DNA of 64,000 nucleotides from Candidatus Nitronereus thalassa (GTDB taxonomy: Bacteria; Nitrospirota; Nitrospiria; Nitrospirales; UBA8639), in the NCBI RefSeq assembly GCF_032191465.1, contig NZ_JAQOUE010000001.1, positions 992,001 through 1,056,000 on the forward strand, in the 5' to 3' direction. A model generated the notes under the pieces. It was not told the DNA's origin. It saw nothing but the letters and a program-made list of their open reading frames with translations, and did no database searches. The stretch's first letter is position 1. Each line of letters begins with the position of its first letter. This document shows, piece by piece, positions 14,540 through 34,828 of the stretch. The translations under genes were made by a program, and so were the position numbers.

Positions 14540-16422
14540 CACCAGGCCCTTTTAATCTTCGTATGCGCAGCAGGCATGGCTGGCCCCTGTGGCCAATCGT
14601 CCGGATTCAATGGTGCTGGCGCTCCACTGATGCCGGCATTCGCTTCTTCATACTGAATGACATTTCCAAACTCCTGCGTAAATGCATCCAACGTGCCTGC
14701 ATTTCCTGCAGGTTGCCAGCCCAGGGTCGTCCCCCAGGGCATTGAAGAATGGGTCCAACCTTTCAGGTCCAATCCTGCTCCCTGGGTATCTTCCGCAATC
14801 CGCCACGGACTCGTTCCGGGATTCAGTCCAAAAATTTTACTGGGATTATCATTGACCACAATGGCCCCGAGATCAATTTGTTGCCGGCCGATAAAATTCA
14901 CAAAGGGAATGTCGACAAGGCCCACGTCATAACCATATCCCACCCCGGCTTCATAACGAAAATCTTCAAGGCCTTGATAAAATTGGCCCTCAATCGACAC
15001 ACCTATTTGGTCCTCGGCCGTCAGTGTAGGAACGCGCCCAATTTCATCTTCAAAGTTGAGATCAAAATCAACCCCAACTCGATCGAAGAATGAATCCCCA
15101 ATTCCGATATAGCGAAGATCCTTCGTGCCTGAACTCCAAGAATTATCTAGAACCGGATTGACCTGCCCAGCTCGACCAAGCTGATCCGCATTTTGGTCGC
15201 TTATATCAAAATCAAAATCCACTCCAATTTTCTCAAAAAAACTATCCTTGAGCGTGATAAATCGCACTTCAATGGTCACCTGTAAATCCTGTAACCTACC
15301 CCCGCCTAACCCCATCCCGACAAACCCGGGCGATTGATCACCAGGGTTCCACTTACTCGTTTCACCTGGCGTGGACTCGGCAAGGAAGGACTCAGGACTA
15401 AAAAATGCGTCATACCACGTTCCCGTATATACCGTGGGCAACCCTGCCTTAGAATCAGCTAACGCCGTTCCAGGTTTTGTTTGGTAGGTACCCTGCAGAG
15501 TCGAGGATTGCGATGTTCTCTGATTCGTGCCAGACGAGGAAGAATCAGACTCCTGCGATCCTGAACCTCCCTGCGAACCACTCCCCTGATTTTCCGGGGT
15601 CCCACCTTGCCCTGGCTGATTGGTGGAGGGAGGAGTCGTCGAACCTCCACCACCCGGAGTCACGGCACCGGTCCCCTGCCCGCCTTGAGCCTGCGCCGCA
15701 CGTTGGCGTTCAAATTCTTCCTTGAGTGCTTTCTTCAATTCCTCTACCCACCAATCCGGCATGCGAAAATATCCCCGTTCCTCAGACTCTCGCATCGTCG
15801 TCCGTAGAAGCGTGGCAATTGATTGATTAAAGGCTGTCACCCAATCTTCATACATGTCCAAGGTATCAGGCGGATGCCGTCGTTCCCGATGAGTCGCATG
15901 CAAGACCTCATGCACCAAGATATCCCAATTCGATTGAGTGACCCCCATAAATTCCCAGGTATCATACCATCGATACTGTTTAAGTTTGTCACAGTCCAAC
16001 ACAATATGCGTGGTGCCTCCGGCCTTCGGCGTCCCATCATCATTAAAGTCCCCATGGGTTTCCCCCCAAGATTGTGTGAACAACTCAGCCTCTGGTTTTT
16101 CCACACCTAATTGATCCGCCTCATACGACCCGTAACAAATAATTCGAAGCGTTTGTCGGCTATTATAAAGGGCCAGGGCGGCAGGATTGGTTCGTCCCAT
16201 TTTTTGCAATCCTTCATTGATCATCCGCTGAATCTCTTCCTCACCATCAGGCGCACCAAGATTTGCCGACACACTCGGCGTAAAATCCACCGTCACCTGG
16301 GCCCATGATAGATTTGGGAGCAAAAGAAACAACGGGAGAAGTAGTCCAAAGAAAATGGGAATCAACCTAAACACTACAGCCCTCTCATAACGATAGGAAT
16401 TGAGTTGTATGTTTATGCTCAT
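14539..16422 (-). CDS. Exported HExxH metalloprotease-like protein with secretin-like region, partner of subtilase copy 2
   Basis: The protein has 627 residues. Signal peptide to about Ala41 (FFGLLLPLFLLLPNLSWA). Domain 1 (about 43-240) holds the zinc-protease motif HEVLH at 171-175; Glu192 or His183 could be the third metal ligand. A Gln/Gly/Ser-rich linker spans about 243-330. Domain 2 has VTIEVRFITLKDSFFEKIGV (382-401), close to the start of secretin beta-domains, and a second DSFFDRVGVDFDLNF copy (443-457); the full secretin signature further on is not seen. The tail APAPLNPDDWPQ resembles the other partner's tail. Function is unknown. It is upstream of and overlaps the protease gene at 13136. 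Confidence 0.7.
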   Translation of the reverse strand: MSINIQLNSYRYERAVVFRLIPIFFGLLLPLFLLLPNLSWAQVTVDFTPSVSANLGAPDGEEEIQRMINEGLQKMGRTNPAALALYNSRQTLRIICYGSYEADQLGVEKPEAELFTQSWGETHGDFNDDGTPKAGGTTHIVLDCDKLKQYRWYDTWEFMGVTQSNWDILVHEVLHATHRERRHPPDTLDMYEDWVTAFNQSIATLLRTTMRESEERGYFRMPDWWVEELKKALKEEFERQRAAQAQGGQGTGAVTPGGGGSTTPPSTNQPGQGGTPENQGSGSQGGSGSQESDSSSSGTNQRTSQSSTLQGTYQTKPGTALADSKAGLPTVYTGTWYDAFFSPESFLAESTPGETSKWNPGDQSPGFVGMGLGGGRLQDLQVTIEVRFITLKDSFFEKIGVDFDFDISDQNADQLGRAGQVNPVLDNSWSSGTKDLRYIGIGDSFFDRVGVDFDLNFEDEIGRVPTLTAEDQIGVSIEGQFYQGLEDFRYEAGVGYGYDVGLVDIPFVNFIGRQQIDLGAIVVNDNPSKIFGLNPGTSPWRIAEDTQGAGLDLKGWTHSSMPWGTTLGWQPAGNAGTLDAFTQEFGNVIQYEEANAGISGAPAPLNPDDWPQGPAMPAAHTKIKRAW

Positions 16423-18606: not shown

Positions 18607-20088
18607 TTATGGGAGAGGGATCGCTGAAGAAGTTGCCACGGAAACCAGTGGACCAGGATACACACCTAGGACCACGACACCGGCGACGGCAAAGGCGAGG
18701 ACCACTGTGGCTGTTGGCGAAAGCGCGAGACGGGTTTCGCCTTCCTGTTCGGATGAGGGTTCGCGCATGTACATGACCATGACGACGCGTAGGTAGTAAA
18801 ACGCAGAGACGGCTGCAAAGACCAGCCCTACGACAGCCAACCATGTGAGACCAGCATTGACCGCAGCCATAAAGAGATAAAACTTTCCAATAAACCCTGC
18901 GGTGGGCGGAATGCCGGCCAACGACACCATAAATAGCATCATGAGAAAGGCTGCGCCTTTGTGGCGTTTGGCAAGGCCGGTGAAATCATCCAACTCTTCG
19001 CCTTCCAACCCTCCCCGCCGTAAAATCGCTACCATGGCGAATGCGCCTATGGTCATAAACGAGTAAATGGCTAAGTACAACATGATACTCGTCACGCCAG
19101 CAGAAGCCACGCCAGCTCCGGTGCCCATCCACCCGGCTACGACCACGCCGATTAACGCATAGCCCGCATGGGCAATACTCGAATAGGCCAACATCCGTTT
19201 GATGTTGTTCTGGACGATCGCCACAATATTCCCCAAAATCAGCGTGAGGACACACATGCCTAAGATCAGCCCGCTCCAATTCGGTTTGACCCCGCCAAAG
19301 CCTTCGAGCAAGACACGTAGGAATGCCGCAAAGCTGGCGGCTTTGGACGCAACGGCCATAAATGCCGTGACCGTTGTCGGAGATCCTTGATACACATCCG
19401 GTGTCCACATGTGAAAGGGTACCGCCGCCACTTTAAAAGCAAACCCGGCAATGATGAGCATCAGGGCAATGAGGACCAATGGATCGTTGAGCCCTCGTTC
19501 AGCGACGGCCGCAGCGATATCAATGAGTCGTGTACTACCGGCGGCACCAAAGGTCAGCGAAATCCCATACAATAGAAGGCCCGAAGAAAAGGCTCCCAAG
19601 ATAAAATACTTGGCCGAGGCCTCAATGGACTTGGCTTCGAAGCGTTTGAACCCCGCCATGATATAGAGGGAGATCGACATGAGTTCGATGCCTAAATAGA
19701 TCACCAAGAGATCAGAGCCAGAAACCATGATCATCATGCCCGTGAGAGAAAGCATGATGAACCCATAGAACTCTGCGAGGTCGATTCTCTCTTCTTTGAG
19801 ATATCCAATCGACAACAGAATGGTCAGGCCGCTCACCACATATAAGAGCAACTTCCAAAACGAGGCATAGGAATCGACCATCACCAAGTCGCTAAAGGCA
19901 AAGGTCTTGTCGCCCATTCCTACTGCGGTGACAAAAAAGCAGACTACCAGGGTGCCCACACACATCCAGGCAAGAATATCTTTTTTTGCCTGAGGCATGA
20001 TGGGATCAAGCACGAACAGTAGGCAGGCGGCGAAGACCACGAGCAATTCGGGCAGGATAGTGGCCAGATCGGCTAGAGGAATACTCAT
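18607..20088 (-). CDS. nuoN: NADH-quinone oxidoreductase subunit N
   Basis: The protein has 493 residues with about 14 membrane helices. It is an antiporter-like proton-pumping subunit of complex I. The helix-5 glutamate is in IYLGIELMSISLYIMAGF and the helix-7 lysine in FAFKVAAVPFHMWTPDVYQGSP. It is the last gene of the nuo operon; its start overlaps the stop of nuoM by four bases (ATGA). Confidence 0.95.
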   Translation of the reverse strand: MSIPLADLATILPELLVVFAACLLFVLDPIMPQAKKDILAWMCVGTLVVCFFVTAVGMGDKTFAFSDLVMVDSYASFWKLLLYVVSGLTILLSIGYLKEERIDLAEFYGFIMLSLTGMMIMVSGSDLLVIYLGIELMSISLYIMAGFKRFEAKSIEASAKYFILGAFSSGLLLYGISLTFGAAGSTRLIDIAAAVAERGLNDPLVLIALMLIIAGFAFKVAAVPFHMWTPDVYQGSPTTVTAFMAVASKAASFAAFLRVLLEGFGGVKPNWSGLILGMCVLTLILGNIVAIVQNNIKRMLAYSSIAHAGYALIGVVVAGWMGTGAGVASAGVTSIMLYLAIYSFMTIGAFAMVAILRRGGLEGEELDDFTGLAKRHKGAAFLMMLFMVSLAGIPPTAGFIGKFYLFMAAVNAGLTWLAVVGLVFAAVSAFYYLRVVMVMYMREPSSEQEGETRLALSPTATVVLAFAVAGVVVLGVYPGPLVSVATSSAIPLP

Positions 20089-21656
20089 TGAACCAGGGCC
20101 TCCCGACCGGAATCCGGAGACACAGATTCAGACAGCACCAACGTGGTGGGAATGTTTGGGGCTGGCATTTCCACGGTCATGACTTTGACTTCTTGCTGGA
20201 TGAGGTTATCCACGGTGGCATGCATCACATCGAGGAGCGGTTTGGGGTACAACCCAATCAAGAACACAAACAACACCAGAGGAACCAACATCCCCCATTC
20301 ACGAAGATTTAAATCTGAAAGTTTCGAGGCCATCTGTTGCGACGGCTGTCCATATACCACACGCTGTAACATCCACAGGATGTACGCTGCTGCGAGAATC
20401 ACGCCAAGCGCCGCGAACGTGGCGGTTATTTTGCTCCACATGAACGTTCCCACCAACACGAAAAATTCACCAACAAAACTATTCATCCCTGGCAGCCCAA
20501 CGGAGGACAGGGAAAAAATGACCAAAAACGTCGCATAGCAAGGCATGGGTTTGGCGAGACCCGAGTTATCGACAATCTCACGGCTATGGGTTCGCTCATA
20601 AATAATGCCCACGCACATAAACAGCCCACCGGTGGTAATGCCGTGATTCACCATTTGCAAAATCGCACCCTCAATTCCCTGTGCATTCATCGCAAAAATC
20701 CCAAGCGTCACAAACCCCATGTGACTGACACTGGAATAGGCAATGAGTTTCTTCAGGTCGGACTGCGCAAAGGCCATATAGGCCCCATAGATAATCGCAA
20801 TCACCGACAAGGTCATAATGATCGGGGTAAAGGAGAGCGAGGCATCAGGCAGCATGGGCAAAGAAAATCGGAGAAAGCCATAGGTGCCCATCTTGAGCAA
20901 CACACTAGCAAGAATAATACTGCCGGCCGTCGGCGCTTCCACATGAGCATCCGGCAACCATGTGTGAAACGGAAACATCGGCACCTTGACGGCAAACGCC
21001 GCAAAGAACGCCCAGAACAACCAGGCCTGTAAGGTGGGTGAATAGGCCGATTGGCTGAGCGATAATATATCGAACGTGTTTTCTCCTGAACTAAAGAAGA
21101 GCACGATGATCGCCACCAACAGCAACACGCTCCCCGCCAATGTATAAAGGAAAAACTTGATTGCGGCATAGACCCGGTTTGGCCCGCCCCACACCCCAAT
21201 CAACAGATACATGGGAATGAGCATGGTTTCCCAGAAGATGTAAAACAACACGAAATCTAATGACACAAACACACCAACGGTAGCCGTCTCCATCACCAGC
21301 AGGCTGATCATGAATTCGCGCACCCGCGTGCTAATCGACGTCCAGGACACCAAAATACAGAGGGGCGTCAGAAATGTGGTAAGCAGCACGAGCGGCAAGC
21401 TAATGCCGTCGATCCCAACGGCATAGTGAATGGATGGCGAGGCAATCCATTGATGCTTCTCCACAAACTGCATGGCAGGCGTGGATTCATTGAACATGAT
21501 CCACAACGGCAATGAGGCGAGAAGGACGACCAAGGAGGCACCCAGACCAATCCACTTCGCCATCTCTTCTTTAGCCAAAAGAATCGCTGCCACTCCCAAG
21601 AGTGGGAGAAAGACGACTAACGTGATCCAGGGGAATCCGCCTGAGGAAACAGTCAT
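20085..21656 (-). CDS. nuoM: NADH-quinone oxidoreductase subunit M
   Basis: The protein has 523 residues with about 14 membrane helices. It is the second antiporter-like pump of the membrane arm. The key glutamate is in FYIFWETMLIPMYLLIGVWGG and the lysine in FAVKVPMFPFHTWLPDAHVEAP. The C-terminus carries a soluble tail (MPAPNIPTTLVLSESVSPDSG) beyond the last helix. It lies 88 bases downstream of nuoL. Only one nuoM is present here. Confidence 0.95.
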   Translation of the reverse strand: MTVSSGGFPWITLVVFLPLLGVAAILLAKEEMAKWIGLGASLVVLLASLPLWIMFNESTPAMQFVEKHQWIASPSIHYAVGIDGISLPLVLLTTFLTPLCILVSWTSISTRVREFMISLLVMETATVGVFVSLDFVLFYIFWETMLIPMYLLIGVWGGPNRVYAAIKFFLYTLAGSVLLLVAIIVLFFSSGENTFDILSLSQSAYSPTLQAWLFWAFFAAFAVKVPMFPFHTWLPDAHVEAPTAGSIILASVLLKMGTYGFLRFSLPMLPDASLSFTPIIMTLSVIAIIYGAYMAFAQSDLKKLIAYSSVSHMGFVTLGIFAMNAQGIEGAILQMVNHGITTGGLFMCVGIIYERTHSREIVDNSGLAKPMPCYATFLVIFSLSSVGLPGMNSFVGEFFVLVGTFMWSKITATFAALGVILAAAYILWMLQRVVYGQPSQQMASKLSDLNLREWGMLVPLVLFVFLIGLYPKPLLDVMHATVDNLIQQEVKVMTVEMPAPNIPTTLVLSESVSPDSGREALVQ

Positions 21657-21744
21657 GTCAGTGATAAAACTCCAGAAAAAAATTCTTCAGCGATTTTCTT
21701 TCAACAATGGGTGAACCATCACTCAGCAATCTTCAAATGGAAAT

Positions 21745-23643
21745 CTAGAAGAACACGTAGGCCGTGAGGATCAGCACTGCACCCACGGTCATACCCAACG
21801 CATAGTTTTGCGTCTCACCCGTTTGAATGAATCGTGCCATCCATCCCCACCAGGCAAACCCACGCGCCACACCATTCACCGCGTTATCGATGATGGCGAT
21901 ATCAACCTTCTTCCACATTTGGTCCGCGATTTTAAACGTGGGGTTCACAAACACTTTGTCATAGCCCTCATCCACGTACCATTTATTGAGTGAAGCTTGA
22001 TACAGAGTTTGCCATTGAGTCATCAGCCGATCCGGAATGTCTGGCGATTTCACATAGAAGAGATATGCCATTCCAATACCAGTCAGCCCCGCGAGTGTCG
22101 CCATAACCATGATGCCCATGGCCGCTGGTCCATGATGCCCCTCGCCCTCGCTTCCGGGGAAAGCATGTTGAAGAAACTCTGGGATGCCAATGTATCCAGT
22201 GACAATGCTCAACACCGCCAACACCAACAAGGGTACGGTGACGACCTTGCTGGGTTCATGAATATGGCTCGCATGAGCCGGGTCCACACGCGATTCTCCC
22301 CAGAACGTGACAAAGACTAAACGGAAGCTATAAAACGCCGTCATCCCGGCAGTGATCACTCCCAATACGGTGAGCACTTGACCCAGTGAACCAGCATTCC
22401 ACGCCGACAAGAGCAACTCGTCCTTGCTAAAAAATCCTGCGGTGAGGGGAAACCCTGCTAAAGCCAAGGACCCGATCATAAACGTCCAATACGTGACGGG
22501 CAGTTTGTCCTTGAGGCCACCCATGTGACGCATATCCTGCTCATGATGCACTGCCAAAATCACTGACCCACAACCCAAGAACAACAGAGCCTTGAATGCG
22601 CCATGTGTCAGCAAGTGATAAATGCCTGCAACATATCCGCCTAGGCCACAGGCCATCATCATGTAGCCGAGTTGGCTCAATGTGGAATAGGCCACGACCC
22701 GTTTTATATCCGTTTGCGTTAACGCAATCGTCGCCCCGACGATCATGGTGAGGCCTCCGACCACAGCCACCACATCCATCGCCACGGGAGATAGGTTGTA
22801 AAGCGGCGCCAGCCTGGCCACCATGAACACCCCAGCCGTCACCATAGTCGCCGCATGAATGAGCGCGGAAATCGGCGTAGGCCCTTCCATGGCATCGGGC
22901 AACCAGACGTGTAACGGCACTTGTGCGGACTTCCCCACAGCTCCGACAAACAGGAGCAAACAGATCAATGTCATGGCCGACACTTCCCAGCCGCCACCAA
23001 GGGCCCCCATTAAATCAATCGTCGCCTCAGCCTGAGACGCGGCCCCTGTCAACACCGGCTGATATTGAAGCGTGCCAAATATGACAAACACCAACAAAAT
23101 GCCAAGCATGAATCCGAAATCGCCGACACGATTTACCAGGAAGGCTTTGGTGGCGGCAGCCCGCGCCGAAGGCCGTTCATACCAGTGACCGATAAGTAAA
23201 TAGGAACACAGCCCGACCGCTTCCCAAAACACAAACAACTGAAGGAAGTTATCGGACATCACCAGCATGAGCATCGAAAAGGTAAACAGCGCGATATTAC
23301 CGAAAAACCGGGCGTACCCTGGCTCACCATGCATGTACCCCATTGTATAGATATGGACGAGTCCACTCACGATGGTCACGAGCATAAGCATCGCCGCGCT
23401 GAGCTGATCAACGTACAATCCGATTTGAATGGTCAGGTCACCTGAAGATGCCCAGGTATAGAGTGGAATTTCCAACACATGGCCACTAGCTACTTCTGAA
23501 AAAGCCATCAAGGACAACAGGAACGACAGCCACACTGCCGGAACCGCAATCAGATGTGCTCGATCCTTCAGTTGATGACCGAACAACCCAATGATGATAA
23601 ACGCCAAGAGTGGAAGGAGTGGAATGAGTGCGTAGAGCATCAA
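21745..23643 (-). CDS. nuoL: NADH-quinone oxidoreductase subunit L
   Basis: The protein has 632 residues, the usual length with the long C-terminal lateral helix and an extra final helix. It is the distal pump of complex I. Conserved segments are FVFWEAVGLCSYLLIGHWYE (helix 5 glutamate) and GAVGKSAQVPLHVWLPDAME (helix 7 lysine), then HAATMVTAGVFMVARL. The lateral-helix region includes YVDEGYDKVFVNPTFKIADQ. Its start is one base after the nuoK stop. Confidence 0.95.
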   Translation of the reverse strand: MMLYALIPLLPLLAFIIIGLFGHQLKDRAHLIAVPAVWLSFLLSLMAFSEVASGHVLEIPLYTWASSGDLTIQIGLYVDQLSAAMLMLVTIVSGLVHIYTMGYMHGEPGYARFFGNIALFTFSMLMLVMSDNFLQLFVFWEAVGLCSYLLIGHWYERPSARAAATKAFLVNRVGDFGFMLGILLVFVIFGTLQYQPVLTGAASQAEATIDLMGALGGGWEVSAMTLICLLLFVGAVGKSAQVPLHVWLPDAMEGPTPISALIHAATMVTAGVFMVARLAPLYNLSPVAMDVVAVVGGLTMIVGATIALTQTDIKRVVAYSTLSQLGYMMMACGLGGYVAGIYHLLTHGAFKALLFLGCGSVILAVHHEQDMRHMGGLKDKLPVTYWTFMIGSLALAGFPLTAGFFSKDELLLSAWNAGSLGQVLTVLGVITAGMTAFYSFRLVFVTFWGESRVDPAHASHIHEPSKVVTVPLLVLAVLSIVTGYIGIPEFLQHAFPGSEGEGHHGPAAMGIMVMATLAGLTGIGMAYLFYVKSPDIPDRLMTQWQTLYQASLNKWYVDEGYDKVFVNPTFKIADQMWKKVDIAIIDNAVNGVARGFAWWGWMARFIQTGETQNYALGMTVGAVLILTAYVFF

Positions 23644-23644
23644 C

Positions 23645-23950
23645 TTACCATTTCAACAAACTGAAATCATCGACATTGATACTCTCATGGTGCCGATACA
23701 GCGCAATGATAATGGCGAGACCGACAGCGACTTCTGCGGCAGCCACAGTCAGCGCAAAAAAGACAAAGACTTGCCCCGCGAGGTTTCCTAAATACGAAGA
23801 AAAGGCCACGAAGTTGATATTGGTGGCATTAAGCATCAGCTCAATCGACAAGAGAATGATAATGATATTCCGACGAACGAGTACGCCCACGAGTCCAATC
23901 AGAAACACCACGCCACTTAGGGCCAGATAAAATTCCACCGGAACGTTCAT
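23645..23950 (-). CDS. nuoK: NADH-quinone oxidoreductase subunit K
   Basis: The protein has 101 residues with three membrane helices. Both glutamates needed for proton transfer are seen: one in [18 protein letters not shown] and one in [19 protein letters not shown]. The start overlaps the nuoJ stop by one base (TAATG). Confidence 0.95.
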
Positions 23951-24468
23951 TAGGCCTTGGGCTCCATAATTCCTTTTTTCGTTAGGATGATGGCTCCAAC
24001 CATGGCCACCAACAAAATCAGGGACGCGATTTCAAATGGAAAGAGATAGGTAGAATATAAAATCTCACCGATGGATTCGGTGTTGCCCACCGATGCCCCT
24101 GCTTCACCAGAGACTCCGGTCGTCGGTGTCGCCACGGAAAATCCTTGGCTCATTCCCAGCAATACGGCTTCCGTCAACAAGACCAAGCCCAGGAACATTG
24201 CCACGGTCCCCTGCTTATTGAATTGCTCATCGCGCTTGACATTCAAAAGCATCACGACAAAAAGATACAGCACCAATATCGCTCCGGCATAGACAATGAT
24301 TTGGATTGCCGCGAGAAATTCCGCATGCAGGGTGACATACAAACCGGCCACATGAAAAAACATGACCAGGAGGGAGAGGGCACTATAAATGGGATTCCGG
24401 AGCGCTACGACCAACGACGCCGTCAACACAATCACTCCGGCAAAATAGAAAAAAATTACCGTTCCCAA
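23950..24468 (-). CDS. nuoJ: NADH-quinone oxidoreductase subunit J
   Basis: The protein has 172 residues with five membrane helices. The third helix carries [17 protein letters not shown], the pi-bulge segment that changes shape during the redox cycle. The loop between helices 4 and 5 is rich in Gly/Thr/Ser ([19 protein letters not shown]). Confidence 0.95.
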
Positions 24469-24549
24469 CGAATCGTCCTTTTACACCGATCCCCCTTCAG
24501 TTCCCTCCGATGCACTTGGCCCAGCAAAAGGAAATACGGGAGAAGTTAA

Positions 24550-25089
24550 TTAGAATTCTTTCTCGGGAATATCTTTGAACGAGACGTTGAAGTACGCAAC
24601 GTTCGGATGCTGAAATTCCAAGCGTTTTTCTTTGACGGGGAAGGCTCGGTCCCCAATGGCTAACAGCTGTTCTTTATTCAGTTGCAAGTTTCGTTTGTCA
24701 TACACCGCCCATTCATATTCCTGGGTCATCCCCAACGCATCAACTGGGCAAGCTTGGACACACATCCCGCAAAATAGGCACCGGGTCATGTCCATATAGT
24801 ATTCTTTGGCAAAGCGCTTCGTGGGTTCCCCCGGCACTTCCGCGCTCACCACACGAATGACTCGAGAAGGGCAGGCCGCCTCGCACAAATCACACCCCAC
24901 ACATTTCTCCGTGTCATCATCGTACTTCAGCAACGCCAACATGCCACGGTAATTACTCGGTAGCGGCTTCTTGATATGCGGGTATTCCAACGTGATTGGC
25001 CGATACCTGAGTAAATGCTGCATGGTCTGCTTCATTCCAATCAGGATTTCGTAAAAAATCAGCGTTTTGAGCCACTCTTTAATTTTCAT
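24550..25089 (-). CDS. nuoI: NADH-quinone oxidoreductase subunit I (2x[4Fe-4S])
   Basis: The protein has 179 residues. Two ferredoxin motifs bind clusters N6a and N6b: CVGCDLCEAACPSR and CLFCGMCVQACPVDA. The N-terminal amphipathic helix (KIKEWLKTLIFYEILIGM) sits on the membrane. It passes electrons from NuoG to the N2 cluster in NuoB. An 81-base gap separates it from nuoJ. Confidence 0.95.
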   Translation of the reverse strand: MKIKEWLKTLIFYEILIGMKQTMQHLLRYRPITLEYPHIKKPLPSNYRGMLALLKYDDDTEKCVGCDLCEAACPSRVIRVVSAEVPGEPTKRFAKEYYMDMTRCLFCGMCVQACPVDALGMTQEYEWAVYDKRNLQLNKEQLLAIGDRAFPVKEKRLEFQHPNVAYFNVSFKDIPEKEF

Positions 25090-25107
25090 CGAGTTTCGGC
25101 CTTATCC

Positions 25108-26169
25108 TTAGTTCGGGAAAATGTATGCCATGATGGACGTGATGACGATATTGCCCAAGGCAATCGGCAAGAGCACTTTCCATCCAAACCGCATCAGTTG
25201 GTCATAACGTAGTCGCGGCAACGTGGCGCGAATCCAGAAAAAGAAAAACAGGAAAAAATATACTTTTGCGGCAAACCAGAAAATTCCCGTAATCCAGGCA
25301 TAATCGCCGGGAGCCTGTAAAAACGAAAACGGGGCATGCCACCCTCCGAAGAAAAGCACCGTGGCCATACAGGACACGAGAATCATATTGGCGTATTCCG
25401 CCAGAAAGAAGAAAGCAAACCGCATGCCGCTGTATTCAGTAAAGAAGCCAGCTACGAGTTCACTTTCGGCTTCGGGCAAATCGAACGGCACTCGGTTTGT
25501 TTCAGCAATGGACGAAATCAAAAACACCACAAAGGCGATGATTTGCGGAAAGGGCAATGGTGCAAATGCATACCAATGCCAAAACCCGCCAGCCTGGGAT
25601 TCCGTGATTTGCACTAAACTCAGACTGCCTGCCAACAACAACACGCCAACGATGGACAGACCCACATTTAATTCATAACTGATTAATTGTGCCGCGGATC
25701 GCAACCCACCTAACAAAGAATATTTACTGTTTGATGCCCATCCACCTAAAATAATTCCGTAAGCCCCGATTGAGGCAAAGGCTAGGATATACAATACCCC
25801 AATATTAATATCGCTTATCACAAAAGGCTTAAATTCAACTCCAAAGAATTCCACGGTCCAATTAGGACCAAAAGGAATCACCGCGAATCCAATCAGCGCT
25901 GGTACCAGCACTAAGACCGGAGCCATGCTAAACATGATCTTGTTGGCACCCGCTGGGATGATATCTTCCTTGAAAAAGAGTTTGAGCCCATCAGCTACCG
26001 GCTGCAAAATGCCATAAGGCCCAACTTCCATGGGCCCCATGCGGTCTTGCATCCAACTGAGCACCTTGCGCTCCAATAGGGTGAGTACGGCCACAGTCAA
26101 TAACACCAGGCCCATGACTACACCGATTTGCGACAACGTGAGCGCCAATCTTATAGCGACTTCATTCAC
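25108..26169 (-). CDS. nuoH: NADH-quinone oxidoreductase subunit H
   Basis: The protein has 353 residues with eight helices. It forms the entrance of the quinone chamber: [19 protein letters not shown] and the acidic loop [20 protein letters not shown], both strictly conserved in the family, are intact. It links electron transfer to the proton pumps. Confidence 0.95.
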
Positions 26170-26246
26170 GGGTCTTCTCCTTCAATAAGCTTGTCCTCAA
26201 TGTATGTCTCAGCAACATGTCAGTCTTCGATGCGAATGAATGAAAT

Positions 26247-28922
26247 CTAGCTCACCCGTGCAACATGCACTTCTGTGGTCTTCCAGCATGGCACATGATT
26301 GCGTTCATCAATGGTCAGGTGAAAGAGCCGACGAATTTCTTGATCGAAATGTTCAGGAAACCATGCCACGCCTACCGGAATCCGATCAACCAGCTTCACC
26401 GAAACCGTCACCTCTCCCTGCTCATTTGATAGGCACACACGAGCCCCATCCTCTACACCAATCCGATTTGCATCCATCGGATTCAAACTGAGCATTCCAG
26501 TCTCCTGGATTTCGAGGAGCCCTTTGGATCGTGTGCTGAATTTTCCTGAATGATACATCGATTGCCCGAGCACCAAGGTCATTATCCCTTCGCCGGTCAA
26601 AGCCTTCTGAGGGCGCGCATATCGAAGGTGGACATCTTCCTGAAACCCTTGGCGAAGGTAATGGTCCACGACATCCGAATTCACACGATGGGGCTTTGAC
26701 GATGGTCCTAATAAAGCATATTGAGGAATGATTCCTCGAATCTCCTTAAAAATTTCCTTGACCTCGGCATATTCCATGGGTGTATCCATCACCACGGATA
26801 GCGCCGAAAAAATTTCCCAGTCCGGCAGGCTTTCACCAAGGGGCTCAATGGAATTGCGTACCGGTTGCACATGACCTTCGCTATTCGTAAACGTCCCATC
26901 TTTTTCCACAGCCGAAGAGGCCGGAAAGATCACGTGAGCCCTTTTCGCCGTCTCGGTCATGTACAGTTCTTGGCAGACCAGGAACTCTAGAGAATCAAGG
27001 GCTTCAGATATCCTGGCATCAGAAGGCAAGGATTCAACTGGATTTTCGCCAACGATAAACATCGCTTTGAGACTTCCCTGCCTCGCTTGGTCAAACATTT
27101 CCATCATAGTCGCCCCGGGGGTCGCCGGCAGACTCAAACCCCAAATCTTTGCCAATGCGGTTTTGGCCGAGTCATTACCCACCCGTGAAGGACCAGGGAA
27201 ATAATCTGCCACCACACCCATTTCAAGAGCACCCTGCTCATTGTTTTCTTCCGCCAGCACTCCCAAGCCGGATCCTTGATCGCCATGATGGCCTGTCAGA
27301 ATCAAGAGGTCCAACAGGTTCGTCACAATGCCTTCTCCGCCAAGGGAACGAAGCACGCCCTGCCCGGCTAGCACCACCAAGCGTTCCGCTTGACTCAAGG
27401 TTTGAGACGCCGCATGAAAATGATCCGCACCCAACCCCGTTGCTTGCTCTATTTCTTGCCAGGAAATCTTTTCAACTTCGGCAATCACCGTCCGGCAAAA
27501 CTCCGGAGCCTTTCCGGATACCCGTTCATTAATCAAATTCTGCTCAGCAAGCGATTTAATCAATCCAAGTACCGCGGCATCAAAATGCCCCGGGAGCACT
27601 GTCAAATGATGAGTCGCCAATGTCGTAATATTGCTAATGGTTGAAAACGCGGGGACGGCAGTTTCCAGTGTAATCAGTTTGGCGCCGTGACGCTTGATGG
27701 CCTGCTTCACTTTCAACCCGGTAATGGGATTAGACTCGGTGATACTCGTGCCAACTAACAACACCGTATCGGCATTGACGATATCCTCAAAGGTGATGGC
27801 CCATCGATGCGTCCCTTGAATTCGCTGAAGGGCTTTGACGCCATTGATATAGCCATACCGAGCACTGCTATCGATATGATTGGTGCCGATCACGCCACGC
27901 ATGAATTTCTGAAAGGCATATAACTCTTCATTCGTACACCGGGCCGTGATGAGTCCGCCGATTGCATCGGCCCCATGCATAGTCTTCACCCGAGTCAATC
28001 CTTCGGCAGCACAATCGAGGGCTTCTTCCCATGTGACAGTGGCGAAAGATCCATCTGCTTGTCGTATGAGCGGACTTTTCAACCGGTCGGGATGGACGTT
28101 CGCATGGTACCCAAAATATCCCTTCGCACAGAGATCGCCATCGTTACGGCCCGCTCCCAATGTGGAATTCACTTCAATGAGATCTTGATTTTTTCGCTGC
28201 ACGGTCATTTGGCAACCATCACCACAAAAATTACAGATGGTCTCCGACCGTTTGAGCATCCAGGGACGGAAATCATACATCGACAATCGACTGGTGATGG
28301 CCCCCACGGGACAAATCTGAATGCATCCGCCACAGAAATCACATTCGAGTTCGTTTCCAGCCCAATGAGAGATTTTCGTCAAGGTCCCACGTCCCACAGG
28401 CGCCAACGCCTTGGCATCCATCACTTCATCACAATACCGCACGCACCGCATACAGGACACGCACCGATTCATTTGGGTTTCAATAACCGGGCTCAGATAT
28501 TCCTTGGGGAACACCCGCTTCAGCTCCGTGAAACGACTCATGGTGGGTGTGTATTCATGGGAGAAGTCTTGCAAATCGCACCGTCCGCCTTGATCGCACA
28601 CCGGGCAGTCCAGCGGGTGGTTACCGAGTAACAGTTCGAGGACAGACTTTCGAGCGGTCTCCACATGAGGGACGGAGGAACGCACCACCATGCCATCGGC
28701 CACTCGCGTACTACAGGACGTCTGAAGTTTTGGAGTTTTTTCGATTTCGACGAGGCACATCCGACAATTGGCATCGGGCTCGAGCTTCGGGTGATAACAG
28801 AAGTGCGGGATCATCACACCGACCTGACGAGCCGCCTCAATCACCAGAGTACCCTCAGGCACTTTTGCAGAAATCCCATCCACGGTGATGGTGACCATTT
28901 TTTGGATTGGAGTCGTCGCCAT
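26247..28922 (-). CDS. nuoG: NADH-quinone oxidoreductase subunit G
   Basis: The protein has 891 residues. The N-terminal part binds N1b (CYHPKLEPDANCRMC and the later C in QTSC), N5 with its histidine ligand (HPLDCPVCDQGGRCDL), and N4 (CVSCMRCVRYC with CDFCGGCIQICPVGA). CNFCGDGCQM plus the later C in GDLCAKGY supplies the off-pathway cluster N7, found in only some lineages. The rest is a molybdopterin-oxidoreductase-like domain without evidence of cofactor, ending in a small beta-barrel (SNEQGEVTVSVKLVD). It sits between nuoF (14-base gap) and nuoH. Confidence 0.95.
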   Translation of the reverse strand: MATTPIQKMVTITVDGISAKVPEGTLVIEAARQVGVMIPHFCYHPKLEPDANCRMCLVEIEKTPKLQTSCSTRVADGMVVRSSVPHVETARKSVLELLLGNHPLDCPVCDQGGRCDLQDFSHEYTPTMSRFTELKRVFPKEYLSPVIETQMNRCVSCMRCVRYCDEVMDAKALAPVGRGTLTKISHWAGNELECDFCGGCIQICPVGAITSRLSMYDFRPWMLKRSETICNFCGDGCQMTVQRKNQDLIEVNSTLGAGRNDGDLCAKGYFGYHANVHPDRLKSPLIRQADGSFATVTWEEALDCAAEGLTRVKTMHGADAIGGLITARCTNEELYAFQKFMRGVIGTNHIDSSARYGYINGVKALQRIQGTHRWAITFEDIVNADTVLLVGTSITESNPITGLKVKQAIKRHGAKLITLETAVPAFSTISNITTLATHHLTVLPGHFDAAVLGLIKSLAEQNLINERVSGKAPEFCRTVIAEVEKISWQEIEQATGLGADHFHAASQTLSQAERLVVLAGQGVLRSLGGEGIVTNLLDLLILTGHHGDQGSGLGVLAEENNEQGALEMGVVADYFPGPSRVGNDSAKTALAKIWGLSLPATPGATMMEMFDQARQGSLKAMFIVGENPVESLPSDARISEALDSLEFLVCQELYMTETAKRAHVIFPASSAVEKDGTFTNSEGHVQPVRNSIEPLGESLPDWEIFSALSVVMDTPMEYAEVKEIFKEIRGIIPQYALLGPSSKPHRVNSDVVDHYLRQGFQEDVHLRYARPQKALTGEGIMTLVLGQSMYHSGKFSTRSKGLLEIQETGMLSLNPMDANRIGVEDGARVCLSNEQGEVTVSVKLVDRIPVGVAWFPEHFDQEIRRLFHLTIDERNHVPCWKTTEVHVARVS

Positions 28923-28936
28923 AAATTTCCAAACGC

Positions 28937-30250
28937 CTATAAGCTGAGGACTGGAATTTCTCTCTCTTTTCTTGTCGCCCGAATCACTTCCGCCTCGGCA
29001 ATGAGAGTTTCATATTCATCTCGCCAGTATTTCAACGTGCTCTGTACGGGAGCAATTTCCGCATCACCAAACGCGCATACCGTTCGCCCGCCGATGTTCG
29101 AACAAATTTCCGTGAGGGTATCGAGATCACTCGGCCGACCTTGTTTATTCTGAATTCTTTGAAGAATTTGGACGATCCACGAACTCCCCTCTCTGCAAGG
29201 CGTACACTTGCCGCAGGATTCATGGTAGAAAAATTCCATGAGTCGCAACGCGGCCCACACCATGCTGGTTCCTTCCTCCATCACGGTCACGCCTCCGGAC
29301 CCTGACATGGATCCGGCCATAGCTACGGATTCGAAATCCATCTGCACATCAATGTGGTCCGGTGTCAAGAACGGCGCCGAGGCCCCTCCAGGAATAAAGG
29401 ATTTCATCGGCTTGTCCGATCGCATGCCCCCGCCTAGGTCCATGATTAAATCCCGAAATGTGGCATCCACCGGGAGTTCATAATTCCCTGGATTCTTTAC
29501 ATGCCCGCTCAAACAAAAAACTCGGGTCCCCGTACTTTTGGGAGGCACACCAATGGACGCAAACCATTCAGGCCCATGATTCACGATATGAGGGATGTTC
29601 GCCAAGGTTTCCACATTATTGACCACAGTCGGCTTTTGATAGAGTCCATGCGTGGCAGGGAAAGGTGGTTTAACCCGAGGCTTGCCGCGCTTGCCTTCTA
29701 ACGATTCGAGCAGGGCTGTTTCCTCACCGCAAATATACGCCCCGGCTCCAGCATGTACATAAAGATTAATCGTCACGCCACTGCCATAAATGTTCGAACC
29801 TAAATGACCAGCCTGCTTGGCCTCTTCGATGGCCTTCTCCAACACTTTGGCACCAAAGCGAAATTCCCCGCGGATATAGATGTACCCCGTTTCGGCACCG
29901 ATGGCGTAACAAGTAATGGCCATCCCCTCTAATACTTGGTGCGGATCGCGCTCCATCAGTTGCCGATCTTTAAATGTGCCTGGCTCACTTTCGTCTGCAT
30001 TACAGCACAAGTATTTTGGCCCAGGATGACCTTTGGGAAGAAAACTCCATTTCACCCCCGTGGGAAATCCTGCCCCGCCGCGACCACGAAGGCCCGACTT
30101 CTTAACCATCTCCACAATATCGTTTTGAGGGACGCCGGCTAACACCTTCTTGAAAGCCTGATACCCTCCCGCGGCTTCGTAATCTTGAAGCGAGCCGGTA
30201 TAGGCCGGATTGCTCATATTTTTCGTGAGAATTTTTTCAAAGGGTTTCAT
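28937..30250 (-). CDS. nuoF: NADH-quinone oxidoreductase subunit F (NADH/FMN)
   Basis: The protein has 437 residues. It oxidises NADH with FMN and starts the electron chain. GRGGAGFPTGVKWSFLP (glycine-rich NADH/FMN site), the segment ESCGKCTPCREGS and the later Cys in GGRTVCAFGDAEIAP (cluster N3) are all present. Confidence 0.95.
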   Translation of the reverse strand: MKPFEKILTKNMSNPAYTGSLQDYEAAGGYQAFKKVLAGVPQNDIVEMVKKSGLRGRGGAGFPTGVKWSFLPKGHPGPKYLCCNADESEPGTFKDRQLMERDPHQVLEGMAITCYAIGAETGYIYIRGEFRFGAKVLEKAIEEAKQAGHLGSNIYGSGVTINLYVHAGAGAYICGEETALLESLEGKRGKPRVKPPFPATHGLYQKPTVVNNVETLANIPHIVNHGPEWFASIGVPPKSTGTRVFCLSGHVKNPGNYELPVDATFRDLIMDLGGGMRSDKPMKSFIPGGASAPFLTPDHIDVQMDFESVAMAGSMSGSGGVTVMEEGTSMVWAALRLMEFFYHESCGKCTPCREGSSWIVQILQRIQNKQGRPSDLDTLTEICSNIGGRTVCAFGDAEIAPVQSTLKYWRDEYETLIAEAEVIRATRKEREIPVLSL

Positions 30251-30260
30251 AATGTTTCGG

Positions 30261-30779
30261 TCATCCCGGTTCAGGCACCATAAACGGTCCGGTTTTGAGC
30301 GGACAGTCCCCCGTCTGTTTTAAGTCGTCCAAAATCTTACCGACTTTTTCTTCCGTCAATCGTTCGTAATAATCATCATTAACTTGCATCATCGGGCCTG
30401 TCCCGCATGAGCCAAGGCATTCCACGGCACTCAGCGTGAACATTTTATCTGGGGTGGTTTGGCCCACGGAAATACCTAAATGTTGTTGCAACCATTCGAT
30501 TAAATTATCCGCTCGAACCAAGGCGCACATGAGCGACCGACATACTTGAATGTGAAACTTTCCAATGGGTTTGAGATTCAGCATCGTGTAAAACGTGGCG
30601 GTCTCAAACACCTGAGGAGGAGTCAGATCTAATATCTTCGCGATTTCCCTCATGGCCGATTGACTCACGTACCCCTCTTCCTTCTGAGCAAGGTTCAGCA
30701 ACGGCAACAAGGCGGAACGCTTGATCGGATACCGCCCAAGAAGGTCATCAATGTAGTCTTTGTGTTTTTCCAGCAACAT
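30261..30779 (-). CDS. nuoE: NADH-quinone oxidoreductase subunit E (2Fe-2S)
   Basis: The protein has 172 residues, a thioredoxin-like ferredoxin fold. Cluster N1a ligands are C-x4-C in CRSLMC and C-x3-C in CLGSC. The N-terminal helical bundle (YPIKRSALLPLLNLAQKEEGY) docks on NuoF. An 82-base gap containing a hairpin repeat follows before nuoCD. Confidence 0.95.
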   Translation of the reverse strand: MLLEKHKDYIDDLLGRYPIKRSALLPLLNLAQKEEGYVSQSAMREIAKILDLTPPQVFETATFYTMLNLKPIGKFHIQVCRSLMCALVRADNLIEWLQQHLGISVGQTTPDKMFTLSAVECLGSCGTGPMMQVNDDYYERLTEEKVGKILDDLKQTGDCPLKTGPFMVPEPG

Positions 30780-30861: not shown

Positions 30862-32613
30862 CTACCGATCGCATTCCCCCATGACAATATCGTAGGTTCC
30901 AAAAATCGTAATAATGTCAGAAATTAAATACCCCCGCGCCATGAAATCAAACGCCCCCATATGCACAAACGACGGCGAGCGGATTTTCAGTCGATAGGGT
31001 CTCGGCCCGCCATCACTAATGAGAAAAAATCCTAGCTCTCCTTTTGGAACTTCAGTGGCGCAATAGGTTTCTCCTTTGGGTGGCTTGAATCCCTGGGTAA
31101 AAATAATGAAATGGTGAATCAGGCTTTCCATGTCACGCATGACTTTCGGCTTTGGCGGCGGAATCACTTTCGGAAGGTCCGCGATAATCGGGCCTTCAGG
31201 CATTTGCTCCAAACATTGCTCAATGATTCGCGCACTTTGCCGCATTTCCTCTACCCGAATCCAATACCGGTCATAGGTATCACCGTCCTTGCCCACCGGC
31301 ACATCCCACTCGACTCGATCATACACACCATAGGGCTCAAGCTTTCGAACGTCGTAGGCAACCCCTGAACCACGAAGGGATGGTCCCGTAAGCCCAAAAT
31401 TTATCGCATCTTCTCCTGAAATGACGGCCACGCCTTTGGTGCGAGATAACCAAATACGATTGTTTTGAAGAAGAATATCATATTCTTTCATATGCTCCGG
31501 AAAAGTTTTTAAAAATCCTTTTAGCGAGTCGATGAGTTCTGGAGTCAAATCACTATCGACCCCACCGATTCGAAAATAATTCAAGGTCAACCGGGCGCCA
31601 CAGAGTTTCTCGAACATGTCCAATAAAACTTCCCGCTCGCGAAATGTCCAAAAGAACACCGTCATTGCGCCGATATCCAACGCTTGCGTGCCTAACCAAA
31701 ACAAATGGCCAATGATGCGTTGCATTTCCGCGACTATCGTTCGCACATATTCCGCCCGTTCAGGAATCGTCACGCCCACCAATTTCTCTACAGCCCGCAC
31801 GTAGGCGTAGTTATTGGTCATGGCACAGGTATAATCCAGCCGATCGGTATGGGGAATGACCTGCATGTAATGCAAACCTTCGGCTAACTTTTCCACACCA
31901 CGGTGCAGATATCCCATATCAGGGATAGCCTTGGACACACGCTCGCCATCAAGTTCCAGCACCACTCGCAACACGCCATGCGTACTCGGATGTTGAGGGC
32001 CCATATTTAACAACATTTCGGTTTTACGTTTGGAACTTCCTGGAGCATCTCCCGCCATGAACATATGCCGTTGATCATCTGGAATATCACCTTCAGACCA
32101 TTCACTCTCCGGCTCATCCAAGCGAGGCAAAAATTCAAAACGGCTCCGCCACCCCTTACCCTCCGCCGGAAAGTCTTTTCGTAGTGGGTGGCCCTCATCA
32201 TAATCCTCAGGCAACAGAATGCGACGAAGATCGGGGTGTCCCTCGAAACGAATACCCATGAGATCATAGACTTCACGTTCAAGGAAATCCGCGCCTTTCC
32301 ACACAGGCGTTACGGTGCCAATGACGGGGTCATCTTCCGTCACTCGCGCTTTCAGTCGAATTCGGGTGCGATGGGGCAACGACAAGAAATGATAAATCAC
32401 CTCGAAGCGCTCAGAATCGTCGGGATAATCGGCAGAACAAATATCTGTAATATGGTCAAAGGCCATTCCGGGATCGTCATGGAGAAATCGCGCGACTTCA
32501 AGGATATCCTTCGCCCGTACTTTGGCGGACAAATCTCCTCGTTTTTTGTCTTCACTCACAGACAAAACCGCAGAGGGAAATTTGGCTTGTAATGTTTCGA
32601 GTACGCGATGCAT
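30862..32613 (-). CDS. nuoCD: NADH-quinone oxidoreductase fused subunits C and D
   Basis: The protein has 583 residues. The NuoC part spans about 1-180 (with EREVYDLMGIRFEGHPDLRR), the NuoD part about 195-583. The quinone-site loop MGPQHPSTHGVLR carries both histidines, and Arg258 in HTDRLDY is the residue equivalent to the dimethylated arginine of mitochondrial NDUFS2. C-D fusion occurs in several lineages. The end RGYLISDIITIFGTYDIVMGECDR is the normal family C-terminus. Confidence 0.95.
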   Translation of the reverse strand: MHRVLETLQAKFPSAVLSVSEDKKRGDLSAKVRAKDILEVARFLHDDPGMAFDHITDICSADYPDDSERFEVIYHFLSLPHRTRIRLKARVTEDDPVIGTVTPVWKGADFLEREVYDLMGIRFEGHPDLRRILLPEDYDEGHPLRKDFPAEGKGWRSRFEFLPRLDEPESEWSEGDIPDDQRHMFMAGDAPGSSKRKTEMLLNMGPQHPSTHGVLRVVLELDGERVSKAIPDMGYLHRGVEKLAEGLHYMQVIPHTDRLDYTCAMTNNYAYVRAVEKLVGVTIPERAEYVRTIVAEMQRIIGHLFWLGTQALDIGAMTVFFWTFREREVLLDMFEKLCGARLTLNYFRIGGVDSDLTPELIDSLKGFLKTFPEHMKEYDILLQNNRIWLSRTKGVAVISGEDAINFGLTGPSLRGSGVAYDVRKLEPYGVYDRVEWDVPVGKDGDTYDRYWIRVEEMRQSARIIEQCLEQMPEGPIIADLPKVIPPPKPKVMRDMESLIHHFIIFTQGFKPPKGETYCATEVPKGELGFFLISDGGPRPYRLKIRSPSFVHMGAFDFMARGYLISDIITIFGTYDIVMGECDR

Positions 32614-32628
32614 AAATTTTGTGATTGA

Positions 32629-33108
32629 TTATTTCACAAATACTTTTTGTTGCTGAATCTTCTCTTGGAGTTTGATGAGCCCATCGATTAAGGCTTCTGG
32701 CCGTGGAGGACAGCCTGCAATGTACACATCGACCGGCACTATCTGATCCACGCCCTGCACCACGCTATAACTATTGTAGTGATTCCCCGATGTCGCACAG
32801 GACCCCATGGAAATTACATAGCGAGGTTCAGCCATTTGGTCATAAATCCGTCGAATCACCGGCGCCATTTTCCGGCAGACGGTTCCAGCTACAATCATGA
32901 CATCGGATTGGCGCGGTGAGGCACGAAACACCCCAGCGCCAAATCGATCGATGTCATATCGAGAAGACACCGACGCAATCATCTCAATGGCACAACAGGC
33001 TAATCCAAACGTCATAGGCCACAACGCCGATTTTCTCGCCCAATTGGTCAATGCATCCAAAGTGGTCGTGACCACATTCGCTTCAAACTGTCGTTCAAGA
33101 ACACTCAT
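32629..33108 (-). CDS. nuoB: NADH-quinone oxidoreductase subunit B
   Basis: The protein has 159 residues. It holds the last cluster N2: the tandem cysteines in [10 protein letters not shown], Cys in SMGSCATSG and Cys in [11 protein letters not shown]. It hands electrons to ubiquinone or menaquinone together with NuoCD. Confidence 0.95.
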
Positions 33109-33220: not shown

Positions 33221-33592
33221 TTAGTCCCATTCCAAGGCACCTTTCTTCCAGGCATACCAAAAGCCGACGACAAGAATGGCGATAAACAATCCCATTTCAA
33301 TCAAGCCCAACAGCCCAAGCTTCTTAAAGACCACCGCCCACGGGAACATGAAAACAATTTCAATATCAAAAATGACGAACAGCATCGCGATAATGTAATA
33401 CCTCATGGGAAATTGAATCCGCGCATCGGAAAACAGGGGGCTTCCGCTTTCATACGGGAGTAACTTGGCGCGGTAAGGATGACTCGGTCTGACCAACCAC
33501 CCTACCACCAGGGAGACAAGACCAAAGGCCAGCCCAATCATGGCAAAAATGGCAATCGGAATATAATTTAATGGTACGGCTTCAGAACCCAT
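33221..33592 (-). CDS. nuoA: NADH-quinone oxidoreductase subunit A
   Basis: The protein has 123 residues with three helices. The conserved loop reads YESGSPLFSDARIQFPMRYY; the family cysteine (YECG) is serine here, a change that also occurs elsewhere. FVIFDIEIVFMFPWA is the helix-2 signature. It is the first nuo gene, 45 bases after the methyltransferase at 33638. Confidence 0.93.
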   Translation of the reverse strand: MGSEAVPLNYIPIAIFAMIGLAFGLVSLVVGWLVRPSHPYRAKLLPYESGSPLFSDARIQFPMRYYIIAMLFVIFDIEIVFMFPWAVVFKKLGLLGLIEMGLFIAILVVGFWYAWKKGALEWD

Positions 33593-33637
33593 GAGTCGTT
33601 GTCCCTGGCTGTTAGTTATTCCAGAAAAATCGAAACC

Positions 33638-34828
33638 CTACGTCCCGCATCCCACGGGGATTAACACCCCATCAAAAAATGGCCGATGCCGAAGAGCCTG
33701 AAGGGTGGAGATCTCCACGCCTTTATGTTGGATAAGCACCTTAAAGGTCGTTCCCATTCCCTGAGGGCGCAACAACTCAATGGCCCCCTTCACCTCCGGG
33801 GATTCTTGGTCATACCCTGAAATTATTTCATCAATGCCAAGACTCATGAGGAAATGGATCAGGTTCGTGAAGCCAGTCAGCGTCAGCCCGGTTTTTTCTC
33901 CTACCTGTGCCAGGTTGGAAAAATTCACATGGGCCGTCATGTCTTGTTCACCTATCCGTTCATACGGATTGGTGGTCACCGTATGCCGGTAATAACACAT
34001 GAGAGTGCCTTCGTTCCGCTGAGGAGAAAAATAGTCTTGGCTGGTATGTCCATAATCGATGGTCAAGACAACTCCGGCGTGTAACACCCGCACTACTTCC
34101 TGCATCCATTCCACCGCATTCACATTGATTTCGGTAGTCATTCCCACCGGCAATGTCGACTCGCAAGCTTTGAGCACCTTCAACAAGTCATCCGTCGATG
34201 GCTCGTCGAGGTACTCGACAAATTGACCATCGACAAGATCAACATAGATTTCCTTCAAACCTTCGGGCTCCATTCGAACTCGGTGAACCGGAAAGGCATC
34301 GACCAATTCATTTGATAAGAAGACCCCGACCAGGGATTCATCCTTGAGGTTATTCAGGTGTGATACCCATGTCACTTTTTTGTTGATATGAGAATGGCCT
34401 TCCACTGCCTGCTTTTGAACGGTTTGCAGAAAGGGGCTTCGCTCGATAAGGATAATGGACAGCCTGGCATACAGATCAGAATCGACCTTCTTGATTTCGT
34501 CGAGGATATCCTTGATTAACCGCCCCTCACCCGGCCCCATTTCGAGCAGAGTGAAATCCGAGGGGTGCCCAAGCCGACCGTCGATTTCTTGTAATTGCCG
34601 AACCAGGATTTGTGCTAAAAGAGGAGAGACACAGGGCGCGGTGTAAAAATCTCCGCCCGCCATGCCAATAGGGAATCCGGGGCGTCCACTTTGCCCTGGA
34701 CTACTGCCAGTCGTGTAATACCCATATTCGCTATCGTATAAGGCCATTTCCATAAAATTGGCAAAGGTGATCGGATGACCAATTTCACGAATATGAGATG
34801 CAATCTTTTGTGATAATGGTGTTGCCAT
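33638..34828 (-). CDS. MidA/NDUFAF7-family SAM-dependent methyltransferase
   Basis: The protein has 396 residues from ATG 34828 (a TTG nine bases upstream gives 399). The family start PLSQKIASHIREIGHPITFA is followed by MALYDSEYGYYTTG and FYTAPCVSPLLAQIL. The SAM motif is LLEMGPGEGRLIKDIL, with the family segment VFLSNELVDAFPVHRV and the later TIDYGHTS. In mitochondria this family (NDUFAF7, MidA) dimethylates the NuoD homologue NDUFS2 and is needed for complex I assembly. Here it lies directly upstream of nuoA on the same strand, and NuoCD keeps the target arginine, so a complex-I modification role is a reasonable inference; it has not been tested. Confidence 0.88.
   Translation of the reverse strand: MATPLSQKIASHIREIGHPITFANFMEMALYDSEYGYYTTGSSPGQSGRPGFPIGMAGGDFYTAPCVSPLLAQILVRQLQEIDGRLGHPSDFTLLEMGPGEGRLIKDILDEIKKVDSDLYARLSIILIERSPFLQTVQKQAVEGHSHINKKVTWVSHLNNLKDESLVGVFLSNELVDAFPVHRVRMEPEGLKEIYVDLVDGQFVEYLDEPSTDDLLKVLKACESTLPVGMTTEINVNAVEWMQEVVRVLHAGVVLTIDYGHTSQDYFSPQRNEGTLMCYYRHTVTTNPYERIGEQDMTAHVNFSNLAQVGEKTGLTLTGFTNLIHFLMSLGIDEIISGYDQESPEVKGAIELLRPQGMGTTFKVLIQHKGVEISTLQALRHRPFFDGVLIPVGCGT

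Follow-up and report, generated by a model that had tools for sequence, protein, structure and literature searches.

The 64,000-nucleotide stretch of Candidatus Nitronereus thalassa DNA analyzed here (the window) carried a predicted protein arginine methyltransferase gene, midA, directly before the genes of respiratory complex I (nuo), and this arrangement raised the question of whether the encoded enzyme serves that complex and, if so, at which residue. The role of the MidA family in bacteria has so far been inferred mainly from mitochondria. The reading preferred here, given a probability of roughly 0.8, was that the window gene is a bacterial MidA/NDUFAF7 ortholog symmetrically dimethylating R238 (in HRGxE) of NuoCD, encoded about 1 kb downstream.

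The midA gene and the adjoining nuo run

The following features of the window were concerned:

33638–34828, minus strand: midA, predicted MidA/NDUFAF7-family SAM-dependent protein arginine methyltransferase, 396 aa (open reading frame [ORF], PF02636, PDB homologs, and predicted structure)
33593–33637, minus strand: midA–nuoA intergenic gap, 45 bp
33221–33592, minus strand: nuoA (NCBIfam NuoA family matches)
32629–33108, minus strand: nuoB, NDUFS7 ortholog (ORF)
32881–32883, minus strand: codon of NuoB Thr76 (VAGT), partner position of the NuoD-Arg/NuoB-Arg switch
30862–32613, minus strand: fused nuoCD, with its NuoD half being the NDUFS2 ortholog and probable substrate (TIGR01962 and PF00346)
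31900–31902, minus strand: codon of R238 (HRGVE), probable dimethylation site (bovine Arg85, Yarrowia R121, and Paracoccus Arg65)
31840–31842, minus strand: codon of R258 (DRLDY), the residue named by the first-pass annotation (Yarrowia R141; distinct from the known methylation site)
18607–30779, minus strand: nuoE, F, G, H, I, J, K, L, M, and N (ORFs)

The midA ORF was intact on the minus strand (ATG at 34828 and stop at 33638), and a plus-strand reading of 33638–34828 was ruled out by stops throughout. It was followed on the same strand by a complete nuoA–N run with nuo gaps of at most 112 bp; the first-pass annotation had placed the gene 45 bases upstream of nuoA on the same strand, and the distance was indeed exactly 45 bp, the strand being minus. 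The upstream neighbor was glmS, 223 bp away. A promoter and terminator scan of the midA region gave nothing above shuffled background; a weak terminator-like hairpin at the end of midA, likewise not above this background, was counted against the preferred reading. Elsewhere in the window, two closely similar secreted subtilase-like proteases, apparently a duplication, were encoded about 5 kb apart on the minus strand (7183–8640 and 13136–14542).

The first-pass annotation had called the product an NDUFAF7-type methyltransferase, and this assignment was upheld: (i) the PF02636 (Methyltransf_28) model matched at full length (E 2.4e-69; 234 bits, with a cut-off of 23.3; model positions 2–249 of 249); (ii) MidA was homologous to solved COG1565/DUF185 proteins of Burkholderia and Rhodopseudomonas and to Dictyostelium MidA/NDUFAF7 (5ztz); and (iii) its AlphaFold2 model (pLDDT 86.6) displayed the family-specific class I SAM-methyltransferase fold, matching 4g67 (Z 44.6), 5ztz (Z 40.1 over 361 residues), and 1zkd (Z 37.3), with the next unrelated family at Z 16.5, far below Z 37–45. 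The SAM-site residues were kept, namely the invariant GxGxG, NExxD, and DYG plus the C-terminal G/D/T/H/V/F positions (alignments A1 and A3), and the partner NuoD contained an arginine in HRGxE (R238 in MGYLHRGVEKL).

Human and Dictyostelium NDUFAF7/MidA shared with window MidA the PF02636 domain, the fold (Z 40 and 25% identity to 5ztz), and the SAM-site residues, and their substrate motif HRGxE was also present in the window's NuoD; unlike them, the window gene lay inside a bacterial nuo run, and a mitochondrial targeting peptide was not needed. The same family and fold were found in 4f3n/4g67 from Burkholderia thailandensis (Z 44.6 and 30% identity) and 1zkd from Rhodopseudomonas palustris (Z 37.3 and 26% identity), COG1565/DUF185 structure records to which no function was assigned.

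The host genome encoded two further proteins of this kind, both away from nuo: a second MidA paralog of 362 aa (31% identical; C1:2915959, L002) and a third, divergent PF02636 protein of 479 aa (C1:3042905, L003). It also harbored a second complex I cluster (C1:1756367–1768683; L035, 367–12683) composed of nuoA, B, C, D, a NuoG-like gene, nuoI, J, K, and L together with two NuoM/N-like genes; its NuoD kept HRG, and neither nuoE/F nor an adjacent midA was found in the stretch read. The second MidA paralog and the second complex I were counted against the preferred reading.

Linkage of midA with nuo within and beyond the Nitrospirota

The neighborhood of midA was compared in a Nitrospirota sample of 148 genomes, 40 of which belonged to the window's class. 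Within this class, coordinates placed midA less than 0.5 kb before nuoA, with both genes on one strand, in 34 of the 40 genomes; four further midA–nuoA genomes were read from sequence, and together with one midA–nuoH arrangement, midA stood beside nuo in 39/40, with G139 as the sole unlinked genome. The midA–nuoH case was the small Nitrospira-type genome G105, in which midA was followed by nuoH–I–J (L139, 1044–4365) and nuoA was located on another contig. Three genomes of another Nitrospirota family had midA 4.4–4.8 kb upstream, and no linkage was found in the remaining Nitrospirota of the sample. By chance, one given gene would be expected at 2.5 kb or less on the right strand in 0.0005–0.0016 per genome (about 0.0006 at 4 Mb), and the linkage in the window's class was far beyond this expectation. 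The midA–nuoA gap ranged from 5 to 259 bp over 29 loci from three phyla, while glmS/glmU did not flank midA at any other locus tested, and thus the conserved side was the nuo side only. Uniqueness to this genome, which the first-pass annotation had named as grounds for refutation, was not observed.

That MidA and NuoA co-occur in Nitrospirota was discarded as evidence because it was uninformative (NuoA in 112/117 MidA-positive and 27/31 MidA-negative genomes). The 98%-complete Nitrospirota genome G114 (family f15) had a strong MidA and no NuoA or NuoD match, representing either an assembly gap or MidA without complex I, and it was counted against the preferred reading.

The comparison was also applied to other phyla: a MidA-alignment scan of species-representative genome contigs yielded 80 loci, and the window's Nuo proteins were used to examine their neighbors. 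Linkage recurred in several arrangements: (i) in Cyanobacteriota, photosynthetic-type NdhH and MidA were both present in 28 genomes and lay at most 1.5 kb apart on the same strand in 8 of these, with ndhH (the NuoD homolog) preceding midA, at a distance of about 57 bp in Chroococcus (L081), and the orders ndhCKJ–midA (L123) and midA–x–ndhCKJ (L096) were found as well; (ii) in two non-photosynthetic Cyanobacteriota without photosynthetic-type NdhH (L129 and L130), midA directly preceded nuoA–B–C–D–E–F; (iii) in Aquificota, the order nuoCD–nuoI–midA, found in Persephonella, was displayed by 16 of 23 high-scoring MidAs, and a second MidA group had 0/46 linked to nuo; and (iv) in Acidobacteriota, 1/22 was linked (L144, midA–nuoA–B–C–D–H to N) and 21/22 were unlinked. 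All Desulfobacterota loci were unlinked, and MidA was nearly absent from Bacteroidota at the threshold used. Beyond the lineages named above, linkage of MidA genes to nuo was lacking in most cases, which also weighed against the preferred reading. A plasmid search gave 21 MidA matches, the useful part being the annotated Sinorhizobium neighbors: in this one alphaproteobacterium examined, the order was lgt–midA–pgeF outside nuo, which was counted against the preferred reading. Paracoccus, in whose class the bacterial modification is documented, is also an alphaproteobacterium, and the Sinorhizobium midA, unlike that of the window, was not in the nuo cluster.

In a maximum-likelihood tree of 144 MidA proteins, the linked label needed 19 changes, compared to 40 for shuffled labels, and at least 12 changes were forced by well-supported branches; the tree was a quick one with some long rows, and gains were not separable from losses in it. 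Linked genes fell in a Nitrospiria clade, a Hydrogenothermaceae-type Aquificota clade, an Acidobacteriota row, several places within Cyanobacteria, and two other Cyanobacteriota. As far as this tree can be relied on, it is not compatible with one chance event passed on by descent.

It was considered improbable that the adjacency is neutral, i.e., that midA landed before nuoA in the class ancestor and was carried along while acting on another substrate. A single event inherited throughout the class could account for its linkage, and in many lineages midA lay far from nuo, beside coaE/fmdB-like genes, nadA, or lgt–pgeF; against this stood the recurrence of linkage, under gene orders that differ, in Cyanobacteria, Aquificota, non-photosynthetic Cyanobacteriota, and Acidobacteriota, the label changes forced on the MidA tree, the non-conserved upstream side of midA, and the persistence of midA next to nuoH in G105, where nuoA was on the other contig. 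The first-pass annotation had held that linkage to nuo would support a conserved complex I modification and had proposed a tally of midA beside nuo in other phyla; that tally, with linkage kept through the class and recurring across phyla, supports coupling. The recurrent pairing in separate phyla likewise supports an old bacterial modification. The literature search returned no report of midA–nuo linkage, the closest prior work (Shahul Hameed et al. 2018, Cell Rep) lying outside it.

The HRGxE arginine and its NuoB partner

Symmetric dimethylarginine was found in the bovine peptide KCDPHIGLLHRGTEK at Arg85 (Carroll et al., PMC3750175), and the equivalent residue is dimethylated in human, Pichia, and Paracoccus denitrificans complex I and unmodified in that of Escherichia coli (PMC3750175). 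NDUFAF7 is the methylase of NDUFS2 Arg85 in humans (Rhein et al., PMC3829151). The bovine Arg85 counterpart in the window's NuoCD was R238 (in MGYLHRGVEKL). The first-pass annotation had stated that bacterial members have no settled role, which was incomplete: symmetric dimethylarginine had already been demonstrated by mass spectrometry in P. denitrificans Nqo4 at Arg65 (PMC3750175), the same residue of the same subunit as window R238 and hence a bacterial precedent, with the responsible enzyme not named in that paper.

In Thermus, the NuoD arginine is replaced by Thr, and a NuoB arginine fills the same space; the counterparts of window NuoB Thr76 are T122 of Yarrowia NDUFS7 and R83 of Thermus (PMC8042128). 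All 39 NuoD/NdhH segments from the gathered MidA-bearing loci had Arg at the HRGxE site. The 56 NuoB–NuoD pairs from the gathered loci, mostly Nitrospirota with a few loci overlapping, comprised 44 of NuoD-Arg/NuoB-Thr type, 12 of NuoD-Thr/NuoB-Arg type (12 loci from 10 Nitrospirota genomes), and no mixed pair. MidA was absent in 7 of these 10 Thr-type genomes, including all three of family f11, in one of which (G006) the Thr type was the sole NuoD match. The three MidA-positive Thr-type genomes (G008, G049, and G064) all belonged to family f13, which at first resembled a counter-example (MidA with Thr-type NuoD); a second, Arg-type NuoD lay beside nuoA in the two of them that were readable, G008 and G049. 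By family, Thr-type NuoD and MidA absence overlapped in 4/5 (P 0.0016, 26 families). The E. coli and Thermus (Thermus composti) control genomes gave no PF02636 match. These 10 Nitrospirota genomes, most of them lacking MidA, thus had the same Thr/Arg pairing as Thermus thermophilus (Nqo4 Thr and Nqo6 Arg83); unlike that of T. thermophilus, the window's complex I was of the methylatable Arg/Thr type.

Family f10 and genome G007 had Arg-type NuoDs without MidA and were counted against the preferred reading; the arginine therefore does not require the enzyme. E. coli has the arginine, lacks MidA, and is unmodified at the site (modification state from PMC3750175), so the presence of the arginine alone is no evidence of methylation. 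Accordingly, MidA could not be predicted from the presence of Arg, given the MidA-lacking Arg families and the unmodified E. coli Arg. With few independent lineages and with MidA-less Arg-type NuoDs being common, the switch pattern is suggestive of MidA serving the NuoD arginine.

As separate observations on these loci, a nuoB–nuoCD module of NuoD-Thr/NuoB-Arg type with nuoG/nuoI or nuoF was found in L189–L198 and L205–L211 (Nitrospirota) and stood apart from nuoA in several Nitrospirota families, and the NuoD of one MidA-lacking Nitrospirota genome (L170) had HRW in place of HRG.

MidA might instead methylate another complex I subunit, or be an assembly chaperone acting without NuoD methylation, and its immediate neighbor was indeed nuoA in Nitrospiria and nuoI in Aquificota rather than nuoCD. 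This was judged quite unlikely: NuoD was the neighbor common to most arrangements (ndhH directly in Cyanobacteria, nuoCD no more than about 0.8–1.2 kb from midA in Aquificota, and nuoD no more than about 2 kb away where midA precedes nuoA), the human enzyme methylates NDUFS2 (PMC3829151), and the Thr switch accompanying MidA absence occurred at exactly that NuoD position. Still less credible was DNA methyltransferase activity, which has been suggested for Wolbachia, whose MidA expressed in dam-/dcm- E. coli was reported by one study to give modified bases (PMC12455994); the nuo linkage in several lineages, the relationship to a protein arginine methylase by both homology and fold, and the domain search, which found no DNA-binding domain added to the 396 aa, all argue against it, and nothing in this analysis supports DNA methylation by window MidA.

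That the modified residue is R258 in DRLDY, as the first-pass annotation had claimed for the NDUFS2 target, was regarded as next to impossible, even though all NuoDs examined had R258 and its Yarrowia counterpart R141 is likewise a neighbor of N2: for complex I of bovine, human, Pichia, and Paracoccus origin, the methylated peptide was sequenced and is the HRG (HRGxE) one, i.e., R238 here, and in Thr-type NuoDs of MidA-lacking genomes R258 stayed Arg while the R238 position did not. The methylated residue is Yarrowia R121, and the R258 counterpart R141 is a separate residue (PMC8042128); R258 lay 20 positions after R238, and the mix-up may have arisen because both border cluster N2. With R238 as the target, a test of Arg258 would miss the site, and an unmodified Arg258 is invalid as a refutation.

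Proposed role of MidA in complex I

By extension of the NDUFAF7 work, MidA would carry out SAM-dependent symmetric dimethylation of R238, probably on newly made NuoCD before or during NuoB docking. The methylated guanidinium would pack against cluster N2 at the NuoD–NuoB interface, and the modification may thereby shape the N2 surroundings and help assembly, as the same work suggests. To judge from the short midA–nuoA gap, co-transcription with nuo might keep production of the enzyme matched to that of its main client. The pairing of this known enzyme family with the client expected of it is real and conserved, and methylation in this organism is predicted.

On a wider scale, MidA may well be an ancient maturation enzyme of bacteria, specific to the HRGxE arginine of NuoD and acting on Nitrospirota and Aquificota complex I and on cyanobacterial NdhH, with the switch to a NuoB arginine permitting the loss of midA; this was held to be somewhat probable. 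The literature searched contained no report of this arginine modification in cyanobacterial NDH-1. By recurring next to NuoD/NdhH in phyla apart from one another, the gene points to both a substrate and a residue to test for the bacterial MidA family; this placement ties MidA to a known N2-neighboring arginine switch between two subunits, and corrects the residue to be addressed by experiments to R238, not R258.
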